A DNA stretch of 25,239 nucleotides from Gammaproteobacteria bacterium (lineage in GTDB: Bacteria; Pseudomonadota; Alphaproteobacteria; UBA828): NCBI GenBank assembly GCA_002714015.1, contig PAWF01000053.1:3482-28720 (forward strand). Reading direction: 5' to 3'. This document shows, piece by piece, positions 3,881 through 13,400 of this stretch. Under the pieces are notes generated by a model, which was not told the DNA's origin, did not search any database, and saw only the letters and a list, made by a program, of their open reading frames with translations. Within the stretch, counting starts at the first letter, position 1. Each line of letters starts with the position of its first letter. Position numbers and translations under genes: made by a program.

Positions 3881-5593
3881 TTATGAAGGTTTAGTGTTCT
3901 GGATATTTTCTAAATTTATTCCATAAGTATCAATAGCTTCTTCTCTTGAGATATAACCTAATACCAAGTCTCTTTTAATATCATAATCATTACGTTCTTC
4001 TGGTTTCCCGTATCCACCACCACCAGCTGTACATTGGCTAACAATATCTCCTTTTTTCAATGAAATTTGGGTGCCTTTGGATACAAATTTTGGAGAAGCG
4101 AGCTCTGAACCTTTGCCGCGATTAACAAAGTAAGCACCAACCCCACCCTCTTTTCCACCATCAAGACCATTTGCCCCGTATATGCAACGATCAGCTACAA
4201 AAGAAAGTGATGCAGAATCTGCTAGTATTTCATAGTCTCGGTGTGTTCCTAATCCTCCTCGATGGCGTCCAGCACCCCCGGTATCCTGCCTTAGCTCGTA
4301 CTTTAGTAATCTTATAGGTAATGAAAGTTCTAGGGCTTCAGCTGGCATATTCTTGCAATTCCCAACAATTGAAAAAAGTGCATTTTCTCCATCTTTTTTA
4401 TCAAGTGCTCCCCAACCTCCTTCTGGATATGAATAAAATACATTTGGTTCTTGATTTGGACCACTTGTAGTTGAGATTAGTAAGTTATTAGACGAGCCGT
4501 GATCTCCTGAAATAACTATAGGACCATAAGGTAATTCCGCAAAAGCTTTTTGAATAACATTAACTATACGATGTGATGTTTCATTACCTCCGGTACATGG
4601 AGCTGGAAATTTTGGATTAAGCACACATCCTTCTGGAGCGAAGATATTTATTGGGCGGTACGCACCATCATTTGCAGGTATGGTTGGGTCAACAGCAGCT
4701 TGAACCGCTAGGTAAGTGGCTGAGGCAGTCATCCCTCTTACAGAATTTACTGGACCCGTCACTTGTTTGTCTGAGCCACTAAAGTCAAACTCTAATTTAT
4801 CATCTGCCACAGTAAGTGCTACGTGAATTTTTATAGGTTTGTTATTAATTCCATCATTATCAAGATAATCCTCAGCGAACCAGGTACCGTTAGGCCAATC
4901 TTTAATTTTACTAAGCATCCTTTTTTCAGATTGATTACATATTTCTTTGGCAGCATATTGAAGAGTTTGTAGAGAATATCGTTCACAAAGATTTATTGTA
5001 CGTTTTACTGCTGTTCGGTTAGAGGAGAATTGGGCTTCTAGATCGCCACTCATTTCCCGAGGAACACGGACATTATTTAAAATTATTTCTTTTAAATCTT
5101 GATCTATTTTTCCTCTTCTAACAAATCGAACAGGCGGTATTCGCAATCCTTCCTGAAAGTTTTCTCGTGCTTCACTGTAAAAACTTCCAGGGACTGTTCC
5201 ACCTATATCAGCGTGATGAGCGCGGTTTGCTGCAAAAGCGATTATTTCCCCCGAGAAGAAAATTGGAGTTATTGCGGTCAGGTCAGGTAGATGTGTACCT
5301 CCGCGATATGGGTCATTCAACAAAACTGCATCACCTTCCTCAAAAGAAGAGATACCAACTTCTTCTATTGCTTCTCTTACAGCAAATTGAAGTGCTCCTA
5401 GGTGAATAGGTAAAAATTCTCCTTGTGCCCATAAACGCCCACTGCTATCGAAGACACCACATGAAAAATCCGACCCTTCATTAAAAATGTTTGAGTAAGC
5501 TGTTTGCCTTAGAGTTACACCCATTTCACGAGCTATTGATACAAGGTGGCTTCGTATTATGCCGACTGTAATAGGGTCTACTTTTTCGTTCAT
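3881..5593 (-). CDS. hyuB: HyuB-family hydantoinase/oxoprolinase subunit B
   Basis: A 570-residue protein of the N-methylhydantoinase B/5-oxoprolinase C-terminal-half family. Diagnostic segments: DPITVGIIRSHL at the start, the EGSDFSC motif (39-45), NDPYRGGTHLPD (93-104), AHHADIGG with the following PGS, DFSGSD with GPVNS near 270-283, and GGNETSHRI in the middle. Family members are the second subunit of ATP-dependent cyclic-amide hydrolases (hydantoinase, oxoprolinase, caprolactamase) or of ATP-dependent ketone carboxylases (acetone, acetophenone). Sequence alone does not separate these. The ATG overlaps the hyuA stop in an ATGA arrangement, indicating translational coupling and a 1:1 complex with HyuA. 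Length is normal for a stand-alone B subunit. A second, distantly related HyuB homologue is at 23404. Confidence 0.93.
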   Translation of the reverse strand: MNEKVDPITVGIIRSHLVSIAREMGVTLRQTAYSNIFNEGSDFSCGVFDSSGRLWAQGEFLPIHLGALQFAVREAIEEVGISSFEEGDAVLLNDPYRGGTHLPDLTAITPIFFSGEIIAFAANRAHHADIGGTVPGSFYSEARENFQEGLRIPPVRFVRRGKIDQDLKEIILNNVRVPREMSGDLEAQFSSNRTAVKRTINLCERYSLQTLQYAAKEICNQSEKRMLSKIKDWPNGTWFAEDYLDNDGINNKPIKIHVALTVADDKLEFDFSGSDKQVTGPVNSVRGMTASATYLAVQAAVDPTIPANDGAYRPINIFAPEGCVLNPKFPAPCTGGNETSHRIVNVIQKAFAELPYGPIVISGDHGSSNNLLISTTSGPNQEPNVFYSYPEGGWGALDKKDGENALFSIVGNCKNMPAEALELSLPIRLLKYELRQDTGGAGRHRGGLGTHRDYEILADSASLSFVADRCIYGANGLDGGKEGGVGAYFVNRGKGSELASPKFVSKGTQISLKKGDIVSQCTAGGGGYGKPEERNDYDIKRDLVLGYISREEAIDTYGINLENIQNTKPS

Positions 5594-7620
5594 AATATCG
5601 ATTCCGCAGCTTTATTATTTAAACATTCTAGTATTATACATCCATCATTTAATACAGATGCACCTGCTTTAGGTGGAATAACAATTGTTGAGTCGTTCTG
5701 CTGTACTATTGCAGGGCCTTCTAATTTTCCTGACTTTTGCATTTCCTCCCTGCTTAAGGTCGGAGTTTTGATCCAACCTTCCTTGGGGCCCCAAAAAACA
5801 GGACGCGATTCTGTGCGGTAGTCGGTTATCCATTGGGGTATTGTTTTAGGTATAACCTTTCTTGGTGCTGTTGCAGATGCCCTTGCGTGTACAAGCTCGA
5901 TAGGACCTTCTGGGAAAGCATGTCCATAACGGTTATTGTGCAGCTCATGAAATAAATTAGCTATCGATATAACTTGAATATCATCTATATGAACTGGAAC
6001 CCCTAGTTCATAAGTTTGTCCTTTGTATCTTAGGTCAAGCTTGTAACTATATTTTATATGCTCTTTCCTGACAGTTTCTGGTAAGCGGTTATAAGCCTCA
6101 TCAGAAAGTTCTAAAAATAGGGTTTTTAAAAATTTAACTGTAAGATCTAAGAGTGGTCTGTGGACTGTTCTTATTGAATCTATACGTATTTCACTGACCA
6201 ACATTCCGTGAGCAGATGCTGCTCCCGGAAAGGGGGGAATTAGTACCTTTTTAATGCCCAGCTCTTTTGCAACATCCCAGCCATGAGCTGGTCCACCACC
6301 TCCACTTGCAAACAAAACATAGTCTCTTGGGTCGCGTCCTCGCTCGACGGAAACTTCCCTAACAGCATTGGCCATATTTGCATTTACAAGTGATATAATA
6401 CCCCAAGCAGTTTCATGGGTATTCATTTTGAGTTTTTTTGATATGTCTTCAATACTTTTTTCAGCAAGGTCCTTTTGTATTTTTATAGTCCCACCTAATG
6501 GTATATCGGCATTATATCTACCGATAGTAACAGCGGCATCTGTAACTGTAGCATCTGTTCCTGAGTTACCATAGCAAGCTGGGCCTGGCATTGCCCCTGA
6601 TGATTTAGGACCCACCTCTAATCCTCCACCAGGATCTACTGAAGCAATACTTCCTCCACCAGCTCCTACAGAAATAATATCCAGAGATGGGATGGCAATT
6701 GGATATCCACCAATTTCTATGCCTATCGTGAGGTCTGGCTTTGCATCTGTTACGGCTGCGACATCTGTGCTTGTCCCACCCATGTCCAAACTTAGTAGAT
6801 TAGAGAATCCATGCCTTCTACCAAATTCAGCTGCGGCAATAACACCTCCCGCAGGTCCGGAGAAGAGTGAATAAACAGGCCTATCTATTGTCTCATTAGG
6901 AGAAGCCAGACCTCCATTTGATTGCATTACATAGAAATCTCCTTGAAAAGATTCTGATTGCAGCTTGGGAACGACTTCAGATATGTAATGTTTCATAATG
7001 GGCTGAGCAGAAGCATTGACGACTGTTGTAGAAGTTCTTTCATATTCACGATACAAAGGTAAGACCTCATGAGAGAGTGAAATGCTGATTCCTGGTATTT
7101 CATTAGCAATTGCTTTGCCAACAAGAATTTCATGAGAGGGGTCAAGGAAAGAAAACAATAAGCAGATAGCAACTGATTCAATTTTCAGTTGTTTTAGTTT
7201 TGTAATTATTGCGATGATTTCTGAGGAGTCTAACGGGAATATAATTTCTCCACTCGCTGATATCCGTTCATCAAGCTCTAGGCATCGATCTCTTGGGATT
7301 AGAGGTTTAGGCTTGGTTTGGCTTAAGTCAAATAAGTCTTTACGATCTGCTCGCATTATTTCCAGAACATCACGAAAACCTTTAGTCGTAATTAGGGCTG
7401 TTTGGGGTCCTTGACCAACTAGAAGAGAATTCAATACTACAGTAGTGCCATGAACAATTTCATCTACATCTTGAAATGAATTTGTGGCCATTTTAACTGC
7501 TTTTAGAAAACCCTGACTGATGTTTTTGGGTGTAGTGGGAGTCTTTCCAACAAAGACTTCTCCATCACTGACTGCTACTATGTCTGTAAAGGTACCGCCA
7601 ACATCAACTGCAATTTTCAT
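5590..7620 (-). CDS. hyuA: HyuA-family hydantoinase/oxoprolinase ATPase subunit A
   Basis: A 676-residue actin-fold subunit. DVGGTFTD at 6-13 is the phosphate-1 ATP-binding loop, followed by HGTT (57-60), GFRDVLE, REYERTSTT near 191-199, SGPAGGV (254-260), DMGGTSTD (279-286) and a glycine-rich GGGSIASVDPGG segment. These mark the hydantoinase A/oxoprolinase family, in which ATP is used to phosphorylate the amide or enol substrate before ring opening or carboxylation with subunit B. It starts 20 bases after the LLM stop, with AGGG four bases upstream of the ATG, and ends in a 4-base overlap with hyuB. The substrate is not identifiable: hydantoin, 5-oxoproline, lactam or ketone all fit. No carbamoylase or aminotransferase that would point to a hydantoin or lactam route is nearby. 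Confidence 0.93.
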   Translation of the reverse strand: MKIAVDVGGTFTDIVAVSDGEVFVGKTPTTPKNISQGFLKAVKMATNSFQDVDEIVHGTTVVLNSLLVGQGPQTALITTKGFRDVLEIMRADRKDLFDLSQTKPKPLIPRDRCLELDERISASGEIIFPLDSSEIIAIITKLKQLKIESVAICLLFSFLDPSHEILVGKAIANEIPGISISLSHEVLPLYREYERTSTTVVNASAQPIMKHYISEVVPKLQSESFQGDFYVMQSNGGLASPNETIDRPVYSLFSGPAGGVIAAAEFGRRHGFSNLLSLDMGGTSTDVAAVTDAKPDLTIGIEIGGYPIAIPSLDIISVGAGGGSIASVDPGGGLEVGPKSSGAMPGPACYGNSGTDATVTDAAVTIGRYNADIPLGGTIKIQKDLAEKSIEDISKKLKMNTHETAWGIISLVNANMANAVREVSVERGRDPRDYVLFASGGGGPAHGWDVAKELGIKKVLIPPFPGAASAHGMLVSEIRIDSIRTVHRPLLDLTVKFLKTLFLELSDEAYNRLPETVRKEHIKYSYKLDLRYKGQTYELGVPVHIDDIQVISIANLFHELHNNRYGHAFPEGPIELVHARASATAPRKVIPKTIPQWITDYRTESRPVFWGPKEGWIKTPTLSREEMQKSGKLEGPAIVQQNDSTIVIPPKAGASVLNDGCIILECLNNKAAESIL

Positions 7621-8690: not shown

Positions 8691-9596
8691 TTAAATAGGA
8701 TCCCAGCTGAATATATCTGCTGAGCGAGTTAGGGGAGCAAAATGTGCTTCTAATGCCGGTATAGCTTGTTCTCCTATAGACTCAACATCCCATCCTTCAC
8801 TTCGATGAACACTACGAATAGGCTCATAGGGGTCAAATAGAAAGATCTCATTATGTCTTACTGCGAAAACTTGACCAGTTACTTTGTTAGCATCTTCAGA
8901 AGCAAGAAATGCTGCTAGGGGAGCATTTTTTGCAGGCGTCATTTTTTTTAATCGGGCTACCCTTTCTTTTTGTTCATCAGTTTCTGCTGGTATTTCATTA
9001 GTCATTCTGCTCCATGCAAAAGGCGCTATAGCATTAGATCTTACATTAAATCTTTTCATATCTAGCGCTATGGATTTTGACAAAGCACAGATGCCTAATT
9101 TTGCTGCAGCGTAGTTAGCTTGTCCAAAGTTTCCAATAAGCCCTGAGGTGCTGGTCATATGAACAAAGGCCCCAGATTCTTGTTTACGAAAATGTTCAGC
9201 TGCTGCACGGCTCAGAAAAAAACTGCCATTTAAATGAACCCCAATTACAGACAGCCATTGTTCTGGGGTCATTTTATGGAAAATGGTATCCCTCAATATT
9301 CCAGCATTATTTATTACTATATCAATTTGTCCATATTCACTTATTGCAGTTTCGACTATAGCACTTGCACCTTCCCAGTTATCTACACTATTCGTATCAA
9401 TTACTGAGTGACCACCCATTTTCTCTATTAAATTTTTAGTTTCTTCTGCAGGGCTAGACGAGCCACCTTCTCCAGTCACGGATACTCCAATATCATTTAT
9501 AACAATTGAAGCACCTGTTTTTGCAAGTGTTAATGCTATTTCTCTCCCAATACCACCACCAGCACCAGAAACAATCGCAACTTTTCCATTATTCAC
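8691..9596 (-). CDS. MFE-2-type SDR, (3R)-hydroxyacyl-CoA dehydrogenase-like
   Basis: A 301-residue SDR. Motifs: SGAGGGIG (10-17), NNAG (96-99), and Ser149, Tyr162, Lys166 as the catalytic set (YAAAK). The ND.G...TGEGGSSSPAEE insertion after the second beta strand and the NNAGILRD...F.KMT stretch are characteristic of the dehydrogenase domain of peroxisomal multifunctional enzyme type 2 and its bacterial stand-alone relatives, which oxidise (3R)-hydroxyacyl-CoA to 3-ketoacyl-CoA. The start is placed at the GTG at 9596 because a strong AAGGAG lies seven bases before it; a longer frame from TTG at 9614 would place that Shine-Dalgarno inside the gene. It lies directly after the MaoC hydratase, its functional partner, which is a separate gene here rather than fused as in eukaryotic MFE-2. 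Confidence 0.9.
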   Translation of the reverse strand: MNNGKVAIVSGAGGGIGREIALTLAKTGASIVINDIGVSVTGEGGSSSPAEETKNLIEKMGGHSVIDTNSVDNWEGASAIVETAISEYGQIDIVINNAGILRDTIFHKMTPEQWLSVIGVHLNGSFFLSRAAAEHFRKQESGAFVHMTSTSGLIGNFGQANYAAAKLGICALSKSIALDMKRFNVRSNAIAPFAWSRMTNEIPAETDEQKERVARLKKMTPAKNAPLAAFLASEDANKVTGQVFAVRHNEIFLFDPYEPIRSVHRSEGWDVESIGEQAIPALEAHFAPLTRSADIFSWDPI

Positions 9597-9603
9597 AGCT
9601 TTT

Positions 9604-9609
9604 CTCCTT
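9604..9609 (-). promoter_or_regulatory. Shine-Dalgarno deciding the SDR GTG start
   Basis: AAGGAG on the minus strand, seven bases before GTG at 9596. This argues against the upstream TTG at 9614. Confidence 0.65.
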
Positions 9610-9669
9610 AGCAATTACTTTAGTTTCCAACTTTTAAAAACACATTATCGATTGTATTTTATTCTTGAG

Positions 9670-10515
9670 CTATTTTCGGGTAACGAATCCGTTGCTGAGT
9701 ACAATTTTATCTCTTTCAATAGCTGTAGCTTGAAAAGCTCCATTTTCCCATGACTCAATCAAAATTGTATCTCCTGGAAAGACTGGAGCAGAGAAGCGGG
9801 CTGACATCCCTCCAAATTTTGATAAATCACTATTAAGGATAGTTTGTAAAATGGCCTGACAAGCAATTCCAAAAGTACAAAGTCCGTGGAGTATTGGTTT
9901 TTCGAATCCAGCTGCCTTGGCTATATCTGGGTCAATATGTAAAGGATTAGGGTCTCCATTCAGGCGATACAATAATGCTTGCTCGGGGCGAGTTTGTATT
10001 GTGAAAGATGCCAGAGGTGAACCAGAAGGTCCAGGGGGTGCTGATGGAATGACTCCAGAAGGCCCATCATAACCTCCATCACCACGCAACATAATAGTTC
10101 TTCTTTCAGTTGCTAAGAGATTGCCACTGATTTTATCCAATAGTTTTTTTTCTAAATATAAAAGAGCCCCTTTGGCGGAGCCTTTATCTACCACATCCTT
10201 GATTTGTGTTTTCCCTATCACGGTTCCAGAACTTGGGATAGAGTTTTCAATTTTAATTTCTTGGGCGGCATGTACAAGCTTAGTTGCGTTTACTGAAGTG
10301 CGGGGATCTCCTAACCAAAAACCAGGGTGGCCAAGAACGGTACAAAAAGAAGGAATGACGGCAGGACCATTTGACTCGTTTGCAAACTGCAGCTGCCAAG
10401 GGTCAAGTTGATCTTGGCCTATCCCTACCGATAACGCATACCTAATAGTATCAAATACAGAATACTCTTGATGAATATCGGGTATATCAAAAGCCATTAG
10501 TTGCTTATAGTTCAA
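9670..10515 (-). CDS. MaoC-family enoyl-CoA hydratase 2
   Basis: A 281-residue double-hot-dog protein. The C-terminal half carries the full hydratase 2 signature YRLNGDPNPLHIDP (183-196) with Asp188 and His193 in the positions of the catalytic pair of human MFE-2 hydratase 2, followed by GF.KPILHGLCTFG (about 203-216). The N-terminal half is the degenerate hot-dog domain that binds the acyl chain in two-domain eukaryotic-type hydratases, which favours bulky or long acyl-CoA substrates. Reaction: trans-2-enoyl-CoA to (3R)-hydroxyacyl-CoA. The start is TTG, supported by an AAAGGAGG seven bases upstream; the ATG six codons in has no comparable site. It lies 72 bases after the thiolase and immediately before the MFE-2-type SDR. 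Confidence 0.92.
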   Translation of the reverse strand: MNYKQLMAFDIPDIHQEYSVFDTIRYALSVGIGQDQLDPWQLQFANESNGPAVIPSFCTVLGHPGFWLGDPRTSVNATKLVHAAQEIKIENSIPSSGTVIGKTQIKDVVDKGSAKGALLYLEKKLLDKISGNLLATERRTIMLRGDGGYDGPSGVIPSAPPGPSGSPLASFTIQTRPEQALLYRLNGDPNPLHIDPDIAKAAGFEKPILHGLCTFGIACQAILQTILNSDLSKFGGMSARFSAPVFPGDTILIESWENGAFQATAIERDKIVLSNGFVTRK

Positions 10516-10522
10516 TAGTTAG

Positions 10523-10530
10523 CCTCCTTT
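10523..10530 (-). promoter_or_regulatory. near-perfect Shine-Dalgarno for TTG start of hydratase
   Basis: AAAGGAGG on the minus strand, seven bases before TTG at 10515. This fixes an unusual start codon. Confidence 0.7.
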
Positions 10531-10587
10531 GATTCCATTTTTAGATATCGAGACTTGTGAGGTGCAGACCAAAAATAGTCTTTCTTA

Positions 10588-11790
10588 TTAACCGTTGTAG
10601 TGACCAATGATTGCTACGCTGGAGACGTTTTGAACTGGATGTCCACCCAAGTTATGAGTTAGTCCATATTTCATGTTGTTTATCTGCCGGTCACCTGCAC
10701 GACCTTGGAACTGGAGAAACATTTCATAGAGCATGCGAAGACCAGAGGCTCCAATGGGGTGACCGAAACATTTTAAGCCGCCATCAATTTGGCAAGGTAT
10801 TTTTCCATCAGCATCATACCTGCCGTCCAGGACAGCTTTCCAAGCTTCCCCTTCATCTGCTAGGTCAAGATCTTCCATTGTTACCAATTCAGTAATTGAG
10901 AAACAATCGTGAACCTCTGTGGCACTTATTTCCTTTCGAGGATTTGTTATCCCAGCCTCAGAATATGCTCTTTTAGCTGCAATTCTTGTAGTTTTGATGT
11001 GAGCTCCATTCCAACCATCAAAACCTGACTCCTCACCGTTGGATACGCTTAGTTGTAATGCTTTAACTGAAACAATATTGGTTTTTCCGAGACTCATGGC
11101 TATTTCTGGTGTGGTAACTATTGCACATGCAGCACCGTCACTTACGCCACAGCAGTCAAAAAGACCAATGGGTTCGGCGACTATAGGTGCATTAATCGCT
11201 TGCTCATGTGTAATTTCTCGCCTGAGATGTGCCTTTGGGTTGTTAACACCATTTGCATGGCTTTTGACTGAAACATGCGCCATAGCTCGTTTAAGTTCAT
11301 TTTTGTCGACTCTATGTGCTCCCCTATATCCTGCTGCGAGTTGGGCAAAAGCGCCTGGAGCTGAAACCGTTGGTGCATATAAATCGTTAGTTACGCCTCG
11401 CCCACGGGCAGGTAAGCCGCCATATCCTGTGTCTTTTAGTTTTTCAACGCCAAGAGCAAGAGCGAAATCTGCTGTTCCAGAAGCAACGGCGTAACATGCA
11501 CCTCTAAATGCTTCTGTTCCGCTTGCGCACATATTTTCAACATGTGTAACAGGAATATATTTTAGTCTAAGTGCAGTTGATAAGGGTATGGCACTAGGCC
11601 CTACATTGACGGCGTCAAAAGCCGTACTTAGCCATGCAGCATCAATCTGCGAACTATCTATGCCCGAATCTGTTAGACATTCTTCATAAGCTTCCGACAT
11701 CAAGTCAGAAGGTTCAGACTCCCATCGTTCGCCAAACTTTGAGCAACCCATTCCTAATATCGCAACTTTATCTCTGATGCCGTTAGCCAT
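10588..11790 (-). CDS. SCP-x-type thiolase (acetyl-/propionyl-CoA acyltransferase)
   Basis: A 400-residue thiolase of the SCP-x/archaeal acetyl-CoA C-acetyltransferase branch. The nucleophile is Cys88 in ENMCASGTEA; His294 is in HDCF (294-297), and GHPIGASG (343-350) supplies the second catalytic His. As usual in this branch the C-terminal CxG motif of classical thiolases is absent, with NLGGHP there instead. SCP-x-type thiolases cleave bulky or 2-methyl-branched 3-ketoacyl-CoA, such as sterol and bile-acid side chains, and in bacteria often work with a DUF35 partner. That partner is the next gene upstream here, separated by 24 bases. GGAG lies seven bases before the ATG. A biosynthetic (condensing) direction is possible, but the hydratase and dehydrogenase next door favour degradation. 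Confidence 0.92.
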   Translation of the reverse strand: MANGIRDKVAILGMGCSKFGERWESEPSDLMSEAYEECLTDSGIDSSQIDAAWLSTAFDAVNVGPSAIPLSTALRLKYIPVTHVENMCASGTEAFRGACYAVASGTADFALALGVEKLKDTGYGGLPARGRGVTNDLYAPTVSAPGAFAQLAAGYRGAHRVDKNELKRAMAHVSVKSHANGVNNPKAHLRREITHEQAINAPIVAEPIGLFDCCGVSDGAACAIVTTPEIAMSLGKTNIVSVKALQLSVSNGEESGFDGWNGAHIKTTRIAAKRAYSEAGITNPRKEISATEVHDCFSITELVTMEDLDLADEGEAWKAVLDGRYDADGKIPCQIDGGLKCFGHPIGASGLRMLYEMFLQFQGRAGDRQINNMKYGLTHNLGGHPVQNVSSVAIIGHYNG

Positions 11791-11814
11791 TTTAATTCTC
11801 CGCGATTTATTAGC

Positions 11815-13251
11815 TTATTCCGGTGATGCTTTCCAAAAATATTGTCGCATACCTCTGTTTTCATCTAAATGTTTAATTCTAAAATGCATCATTGTCTTGA
11901 CGCCAACGTCAAAAGTTTCAGGGTCTAAGTCTGTAAATTCTACCATCATGCGTCCTCCACCCTCAAATTCTATGAGACCAAAATATGCTGGGGGTTCCAT
12001 AGAAAACACAAGATGATCGGCTGTATAAGTTTTTACTCGTGCTGGTGTCGTTGACATAGAATATGATTCTTGTGTGTCTTTTGCTCCACAGTTAGGGTTA
12101 ACACAATATATTGATTTAGGGTACTGTATAGTTCCACATTTCTTGCAGCGCCCGCCCTTAAAACCTGTAACCCCTTCTTTATTTCTATATTGTGCGGTCA
12201 GAGCCGGGGGTCTGTCTAGCTCAGCTCTTTTGCCAAACTCCCTGTTTATAACACCATTGAATGTAAGAAATTTTTCATAATTTTTTTCTTCTACTTTTCT
12301 ATTTAACCAGCCTTCAATACCGCGATTGGGCTTAGAATTTGTTATATTGGTTGTAACTTCAAAAATTAACGCATCACACCCTTGACCAAAGCCTGTTATT
12401 AATATTTTTTGTCCTGGAGTAGCTTTTGAAAGTATAGATGTAAGCATTAAGAGGGGATGTGCGGTTCCGCATATACCTATACTGCCCAGCATAGTATTAA
12501 CAACAGAATCTGGCGAAATATTGCACATCTTGGCTATAGACTCAGCTACACGCCCATATTGGCATGGCACTATAAGGTAATCTATTTGAGAACCATCTAC
12601 TCCAACTTTCATGAGTGCCATATTAATAGCTTTGGGAACTGTTTTAAGCCAGCCTTCCTGTCGGATCCACCTATCTTCCCAAGTATAATCGTAATCATCT
12701 CCGCTTGCTCTAAAATGATCAATAAAATCATCGTTTATTGATGTAGAACCAAGAAACTTCAACCCCGGGTTATCTTGGCTTATAACAAAAGCTGCAGCGC
12801 CATCTCCAGAAATCATCTCCATTTGACTTCCTGCCCTTGCTTTCCGATTATCAGAGGCTATTAGTAAGACATCTCCATTTTGTGCGGATGCAATATCTAA
12901 GGCTGTTACAAGAGATGTTGTTGCAGCACGCAGACTCCCTGCTACGTCCATAGTTCTAATGTCTTCTGAAAAATTTAGAGCTTCTGCAACAATTCCGGCG
13001 TTTTGACGGACGGCAAATGGTAAAGTTGTAGAAGCTAGAATAATGGCTCTTGTTTTATTAGGTAAATTTTCAAGGTCTTGCGCTGCTTCAACTCCCATTG
13101 TAATGGAATCTTCATCCCAGTTACACATAGTTCTCTCGCCTTTAGAAAGACTTTTAAGAGATTTATCAAACCAGGAATTAGCCTCAGCCATTACGCTACG
13201 TTGTAACCTTCGGCGAGGTAAATAGGCTCCGAATTCTTTGATTCCAACCAA
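11815..13251 (-). CDS. HMG-CoA-synthase-like domain fused to DUF35 Zn-ribbon/OB-fold
   Basis: A 478-residue fusion. Residues 1-300 look like a thiolase-fold HMG-CoA synthase/KAS III-type domain (VGIKEFGAYLPRRRL start, ISGDGAAAFVIS near 147-158). Residues 365-390 are a Zn ribbon with Cys369, Cys372, Cys383, Cys388; an OB-fold follows to the end, making a DUF35 domain. By eye the HMGS catalytic Cys position falls in DVAGSLRAAT (102-111) as Ser106 or Leu107, and the catalytic His position falls in VPCQYGR (228-234) as Pro229, so both seem absent. In archaea thiolase, HMGS and DUF35 proteins form one complex; a similar scaffold for the adjacent thiolase is inferred. The start is TTG with AGGAG six bases upstream. 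It is the first gene of the minus-strand block. Confidence 0.85.
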   Translation of the reverse strand: MVGIKEFGAYLPRRRLQRSVMAEANSWFDKSLKSLSKGERTMCNWDEDSITMGVEAAQDLENLPNKTRAIILASTTLPFAVRQNAGIVAEALNFSEDIRTMDVAGSLRAATTSLVTALDIASAQNGDVLLIASDNRKARAGSQMEMISGDGAAAFVISQDNPGLKFLGSTSINDDFIDHFRASGDDYDYTWEDRWIRQEGWLKTVPKAINMALMKVGVDGSQIDYLIVPCQYGRVAESIAKMCNISPDSVVNTMLGSIGICGTAHPLLMLTSILSKATPGQKILITGFGQGCDALIFEVTTNITNSKPNRGIEGWLNRKVEEKNYEKFLTFNGVINREFGKRAELDRPPALTAQYRNKEGVTGFKGGRCKKCGTIQYPKSIYCVNPNCGAKDTQESYSMSTTPARVKTYTADHLVFSMEPPAYFGLIEFEGGGRMMVEFTDLDPETFDVGVKTMMHFRIKHLDENRGMRQYFWKASPE

Positions 13252-13400
13252 TTACTTCTCCTAGTATAGCTATTAATTATTAAATATGAGCTTCTAGTAA
13301 TAACAATTAATAACGATCATAATATAAAAAAATTATAGTAGCAGCGATTTTTAGATATTCTAGGCAATATTTTTCTCTTTATCAAAATAGCGGGGTTCTG
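13252..13400. promoter_or_regulatory. divergent promoter region
   Basis: A 149-base AT-rich spacer between the first gene of the catabolic block (minus) and the molybdopterin oxidoreductase (plus). Both must be transcribed from here. No confident -35/-10 pair and no long palindrome could be picked out by eye. Confidence 0.4.
13258..13262 (-). promoter_or_regulatory. Shine-Dalgarno for TTG start of HMGS-like/DUF35 gene
   Basis: AGGAG on the minus strand, six bases before TTG at 13251. No alternative start is nearby. Confidence 0.6.

Follow-up and report, generated by a model that had tools for sequence, protein, structure and literature searches.

We analysed a stretch of 25,239 nucleotides (the window) in which an earlier note had described a protein joining an HMG-CoA synthase (HMGS)-like domain to a DUF35 part, next to an SCP-x thiolase. 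This arrangement was borne out: the fusion is an open reading frame of 478 amino acids on the minus strand, and a thiolase gene lies 24 bp downstream on the same strand. The features of the locus are:

11815..13251, minus strand: fusion of a putative HMGS-like pseudoenzyme with DUF35; single open frame, 478 aa, TTG start
12337..13251, minus strand: HMG-CoA-synthase-like domain, residues 1-305; T75, L107 and P229 in the Glu, Cys and His columns
11815..12336, minus strand: C-terminal part of the fusion, residues 306-478 (linker, zinc ribbon and OB fold, that is, DUF35)
13252..13266, minus strand: ribosome-site stretch 5' of the fusion's TTG; AGGAG, then six bases before the TTG
10588..11790, minus strand: SCP-2-type thiolase (NCBIfam PRK06157, 663 bits, cut-off 403), 24 bp downstream of the fusion
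9670..10515, minus strand: MFE-2-type hydratase (MaoC, from Pfam), third gene of the presumed operon
8691..9614, minus strand: SDR-family dehydrogenase, likely a 3-hydroxyacyl-CoA dehydrogenase by inferred function

On the minus strand the genes follow one another in the order fusion, thiolase, MaoC, SDR, luciferase-like oxidoreductase, HyuA and HyuB, with gaps of 24, 72, 55, 30, 20 and -4 bp, so that the row is probably one operon. Judging from this gene row, the hydratase, dehydrogenase and thiolase would together provide most of a beta-oxidation round. The beta-oxidation genes share the row with two luciferase-like oxidoreductases and with the HyuA/HyuB pair (3881-7620), whose proteins resemble the subunits of caprolactamase, at 488 and 299 bits with cut-offs of 1000. 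A segment running from HyuB to a cupin gene is found twice in the assembly (G000, contigs C2 and C47; here and below, G, C and L numbers are our labels for genomes, contigs and loci) at 99-100% protein identity, which points either to a redundant assembly (contamination 6.8%) or to a genuine duplication. A 598-aa protein is encoded at positions 983-2779 of the window; MORN repeats occupy its N-terminal part, and the long rest of the chain matches nothing in Pfam at E 0.001.

Pfam models place ACP_syn_III_C, the C-terminal domain of ketoacyl-synthase III, at residues 214-292 of the fusion, the zinc ribbon zf-ChsH2 at residues 364-392 (30.7 bits, over the cut-off of 23.2) and OB_ChsH2_C at residues 404-454, the last slightly below its cut-off (25.8 bits versus 27.1). 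All four zinc-ribbon cysteines, read as intact in the earlier note, are present (C369, C372, C383 and C388); in 12 of 107 fused rows at least one of them is missing, which we counted against the protein being a subunit. Three loci (L079, L080 and L084) form a deep branch of the fusion at 32-33% identity, in which the zinc cysteines are lost and the thiolase partner is retained; in two of these loci the HMGS His column does read His. The NCBIfam model of archaeal HMG-CoA synthase, NF003274, spans residues 1-330 with 167 bits (cut-off 244) and TIGR00748 scores 114 bits (cut-off 353), so that the fusion stays below the curated cut-off of both catalytic HMG-CoA synthase families. Among solved structures, the sequence matches are led by PhlA with 106 bits, ahead of a PhlA-like chain (100 bits) and the archaeal HMG-CoA synthase of 6ESQ (73 bits), and the tail finds the DUF35 subunit of 6ESQ with 27 bits.

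Structure prediction, which the earlier note had proposed as a check, points the same way. The predicted fold of the fusion (pLDDT 94) matches archaeal HMG-CoA synthase and the inactive PhlA, with the HMGS fold intact in the prediction, and the separate model of the tail (residues 306-478, pLDDT 77.9) matches PhlB and archaeal DUF35. All 20 Foldseek matches of the tail with E up to 0.001 are DUF35-containing complexes, Trf or the DUF35 protein 3IRB, and the DUF35 chains of PhlB, the archaeal complex and MucABC come ahead of those of aldolases. The predicted folds thus have counterparts among the subunits of PhlACB, of the archaeal complex and of MucABC of Streptococcus macacae (9VBO/9VBT), which, unlike the fusion, consists of separate chains. 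Benzoylsuccinyl-CoA thiolase BbsAB (7PXP) likewise combines a thiolase with a DUF35-type subunit; to our knowledge it has no HMGS-like subunit.

One of the closest known parallels is PhlACB (5M3K/5MG5), which has an HMGS-like subunit without Cys and Glu (PhlA) and a DUF35-type partner (PhlB), and in which only residues of the thiolase-fold subunit PhlC act (PMC6392133). Expression of all three subunits was needed to obtain an active enzyme (PMC6392133). It differs from the locus studied here in that PhlA and PhlB are separate chains whereas the fusion is one, and in that the thiolase of the window resembles 7YVY and the 6ESQ thiolase more closely than PhlC-type chains. In the archaeal complex the CoA site is the meeting place of the three proteins, but its HMGS, a separate chain, retains Cys114 and Glu82 (PMC6392133). 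DUF35 domains fused to thiolase-superfamily domains were noted in 2010, when PhlA was also called inactive (PMC2954200). The inactive PhlA is thus already published, and the near-obligate fused pair described below is the new part; in the open-access PMC literature, to which the search was confined with subscription papers outside its scope, we found no fused HMGS-DUF35 thiolase subunit named.

Alignment to the archaeal HMG-CoA synthase of 6ESQ, in which Glu82 and Cys114 are the catalytic residues (PMC6392133), puts T75 in the Glu82 column, L107 in the Cys114 column and P229 in the His column. The earlier note's claim that both HMGS catalytic residues are lacking holds for Cys and His, while the number has to be revised to three, Glu being lost too. 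Among the best 120 of 4423 close homologues (query included), Cys, Glu and His are each found in 0 of 120. A larger alignment of 410 fused rows brings together 120 proteobacterial-type, 120 haloarchaeal and 120 actinobacterial proteins with 50 fetched loci, the latter comprising 9 from a scan of genome contigs and 41 of 54 listed places outside the own genome. The three sets are the best 120 of 4423, 1091 and 7389 matches, respectively, and therefore near relatives of three starting points, and the rows include the protein itself, near-duplicates and a few shortened proteins. Cys and Glu occur in 0/410 rows each and His in its column in 2/410; Cys and Glu have been lost across the family and not in the own genome alone. 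Both columns are free of gaps except for one actinobacterial row or, in another alignment, the Cys column of Streptomyces. The His-column loop of the haloarchaeal and actinobacterial rows differs between two alignments (mostly P versus Q, V, S, C or H); His was seen there in L080, L084 and Halostagnicola. The unfused synthases L091 and L093 retain the Cys.

These columns bear directly on the idea of a working HMG-CoA synthase with its catalytic residues elsewhere, or of one in decay. The match to NF003274 with 167 bits and the intact predicted HMGS fold would fit it, but the score falls short of 244, Cys or Glu is present in 0/410 rows, and purifying selection and wide conservation oppose decay; we give this explanation almost no credence. 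Against L003, the closest relative outside the own genome, the fusion has a dN/dS of 0.057 at a dS of about 2, near saturation. Decay was rejected since the losses are family-wide, the frame is intact and selection is purifying, in agreement with the earlier note's argument from the conserved frame and the strong ribosome site. In a tree of 45 rows, HMGS and PhlA are split from the fused rows and FabH with support of 95/97, with long branches and an uncertain root; on that split the losses in PhlA and in the fusion would be independent. Neither independent losses nor a single origin is claimed here.

Where A-C-K stood, the family carries a G-S-x-R motif, with S106 in 376 and R108 in 399 of the 410 rows, whereas the position of the nucleophile itself varies (T 121, A 112, Q 86 and L 73, also M, G, R and S). 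The conservation of R108 could mean that the HMGS pocket is still doing something chemical, and we counted it against a non-catalytic reading. Taken further, the HMGS-like half would be a rebuilt, Cys-free second active centre that works in series with the thiolase and might, for instance, hydrolyse a thioester or carry out a retro-Claisen cleavage. The new motif would fit this, as would H179, conserved in 96% of the 170 proteobacterial rows, and C292, present in 79% of those and in 83% of the 120 actinobacterial rows. The drift of the nucleophile column speaks against such a centre, however, and the inactive PhlA is an adequate precedent for a subunit that does without one (PMC6392133); we judge it improbable. 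The earlier note had held that its reading would fall if a structural alignment put a different Cys and His of the protein into the active site. In the sequence alignment of the 410 rows the HMGS half has no Cys or His common to all three branches, which also speaks against a rebuilt centre, and C292 and H179 are branch-specific candidates for a displaced catalytic Cys and His. Other such residues are patchier: C230 is found in 46/107 and C261 in 19/107 rows, and H265 in 75% of the 170 proteobacterial rows and in 0 of the other 240.

To assess how closely the fusion is tied to the thiolase, we compared their occurrence across 289 genomes of the class. The fusion (E <= 1e-30) and the thiolase (E <= 1e-60) are each found in 51, and the 51 genomes are identical (Fisher test 5e-58, related genomes not being independent). 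All 56 fusion copies in this draw have a same-strand thiolase within 1960 bp, the spacing being 862-1960 bp in six of them. Conversely, 2 of the 58 thiolase copies lack an adjoining fusion (G082, contig C21, and G197, contig C1), and each of these genomes has a second, paired copy. The pair is retained in three genomes of about 1.4 Mb (G049, G174 and G270), which speaks for its use. In the 50 fetched loci the thiolase always lies downstream on the same strand, within 182 bp in 47 and at 826-1951 bp in three. Two loci from a phylum search outside the class draw, L088 in G550 and L094 in G417, show a fusion and no thiolase in the short stretch examined. Among eight genomes checked outside the draw, six encode both proteins and two neither (G472 and G309, with unfused synthases), and the thiolase adjoins five of the seven fusion copies in the six. 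In G550 the two genes lie near the ends of two contigs and may be adjacent, while in G417 they lie on different contigs (C3 and C6), a clear exception to adjacency. The statement that the genes are always adjacent was therefore rejected, which slightly lowered our confidence in the fusion being a thiolase subunit; co-occurrence is without exception in the genomes checked. The two lone thiolase copies and the six wider spacings of the class draw were likewise counted against that reading. The pairing reaches from Proteobacteria to haloarchaea: in 10 of 10 named plasmid loci (10 of 56 records found) the thiolase adjoins the fusion, which precedes it in eight bacteria and follows it in two haloarchaea, and the fusion retains the Cys in 0/10.

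The two proteins also diverge together. Over 51 pairs, fusion and thiolase distances correlate with r = 0.76, a value reached by 0 of 1000 label permutations, with shared genome ancestry contributing. The thiolase is far more conserved, with a mean distance of 0.37 versus 0.85 for the HMGS part, which we counted against the fusion acting as a subunit. Clustering of neighbours by longest open reading frames, which serves as a hint only, recovered the fusion in just 38 of the 50 loci; false frames arising in GC-rich DNA are the probable cause.

The window thiolase carries Cys88, His294-Asp-Cys296-Phe (HDCF) and Gly-His344-Pro (GHP), and Cys, HDCF and GHP are retained in 50/50 fetched and 10/10 named loci. 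Among solved structures it scores highest with 7YVY, an acetyl-CoA acetyltransferase (180 bits), followed by the thiolase of 6ESQ (168 bits); PhlC-type chains reach 63-67 bits. These residues bear on whether the pair is an aldolase, in which the fusion would aid its thiolase-fold partner in retro-aldol cleavage as the DUF35 partners of Sal and Ltp2 do. SCP-2-like aldolases with DUF35 partners exist (PMC12329534, PMC11321319), and in the steroid aldolases Sal-Shy and Ltp2-ChsH2 (9MYR, 6OK1) DUF35 docks on the thiolase-fold partner (PMC12329534). The MaoC gene in the row and the steroid and aromatic catabolic clusters around relatives would also fit. Sal and Ltp2, however, carry YDCY/YDHF while SCP-2 thiolases have HDCF (PMC12329534), and the aldolase motif is absent from the partner, which has HDCF and the nucleophile Cys88 in 50/50 loci; this argues for thiolysis over retro-aldol cleavage. 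In addition, the tail of the fusion is nearer to the PhlB, archaeal and MucABC chains than to the aldolase DUF35 chains, which are fused to a MaoC domain and not to HMGS, and the SDR of the row could oxidise a 3-hydroxyacyl-CoA to the 3-keto form. We thus hold an aldolase to be quite unlikely.

Comparison with L003 suggests that the genes moved together. The flanks are mostly 91-100% identical in DNA, while identity drops to 64-87% in a block of about 9,150-13,350 that takes in the fusion, the thiolase and MaoC together with the 5' part of the SDR gene. The dS values are 1.97 for the fusion, 2.07 for the thiolase, 2.60 for MaoC and 0.41 for the mosaic SDR gene; those of HyuA, LLM1, MoOR, SDR2 and four transporter genes are 0.02-0.14. 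It looks as if fusion, thiolase and MaoC were homologously replaced as one block between near relatives, which fits a functional unit that includes MaoC. A second diverged stretch, 3881-5100, covers the 3' part of the HyuB gene at 68-84% identity, with a gene-wide dS of 0.77.

Residue losses, fusion to a zinc domain and a near-constant thiolase neighbour together make it most likely that the protein is one half, without catalysis of its own, of a two-part enzyme that cuts acyl-CoA. We consider it probable, at roughly three in four, that the fusion is an inactive PhlA-like and PhlB-like chain serving as non-catalytic scaffold and CoA/acyl-pocket subunit of a heteromeric beta-ketothiolase. The HMGS-like half would be the equivalent of PhlA, or of an archaeal HMGS that has lost its catalytic residues, and the tail, joined to it in one chain, that of PhlB or archaeal DUF35. 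The fusion would dock on the thiolase via DUF35, and the adjacent SCP-2-type thiolase would do the chemistry, with Cys88 being acylated and HDCF and GHP giving the other catalytic groups. The emptied HMGS pocket may form part of the CoA/acyl chamber and decide which 3-ketoacyl-CoA is accepted. Set in a row with the MaoC hydratase and the SDR, this enzyme would carry out the thiolysis that closes a round of beta-oxidation. Of the two roles proposed in the earlier note, a scaffold serving the adjacent thiolase is thus favoured by the occurrence in the same 51 genomes, the adjacency of 56/56 copies, the correlated divergence, the folds and the PhlA precedent, while a new C-C lyase half is disfavoured as the partner keeps Cys, HDCF and GHP.

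A broader and more speculative version, which we hold to be less likely than not, is that the pair represents a two-gene class of beta-ketothiolases common to bacteria and haloarchaea, of which the papers searched gave no description. The fused chain, far from being a relic, would there provide a rebuilt pocket (G-S-x-R for A-C-K) that binds or even turns over acyl-CoA and determines which bulky, branched or aromatic 3-ketoacyl-CoAs the thiolase accepts.

In relatives, the pair sits in acyl-CoA, aromatic or steroid catabolic clusters. The Halostagnicola locus has acyl-CoA dehydrogenase, hydratase, dehydrogenase and ligase genes with the pair, and in Rhodococcus and Variovorax its neighbours include genes for ring-hydroxylating dioxygenases. 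Because of these dioxygenase genes we considered a relation to ibuprofen ipfDE; the parts of PMC11347016 and PMC9195938 available to us hold no statement on an HMGS part in IpfE. Likewise, no link to the acetovanillone proteins VceA/VceB was found in the accessible part of PMC9618137. In Novosphingobium sp. ES2-1 the gene order around the pair is near that of the edc estrogen cluster, and the homologue there is a member of the fused family. The order is closely similar in Novosphingobium (Caenibius) tardaugens, where EGO55_13555 adjoins the thiolase EGO55_13550; by gene order, EGO55_13555 would be the counterpart of the ES2-1 fusion. EGO55_13555 has been described as an HMG-CoA synthase homologue beside a thiolase in the edc cluster and left unassigned, as an anabolic condensation made no sense there (PMC7793797). 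The portion of the estrogen review PMC12507874 at hand contains nothing on the fusion protein.

Databases name proteins of this family hydroxymethylglutaryl-CoA synthase or OB-fold protein, by which pathway reconstruction is misled. Reading the fusion as a non-catalytic thiolase partner would give the estrogen-cluster gene EGO55_13555 a testable role, and reading the partnership as near-obligate would define a large two-gene thiolase class across bacteria and haloarchaea. As a naturally joined counterpart of the PhlA-PhlB pair, the fusion would also help in studying what holds DUF35 complexes together.
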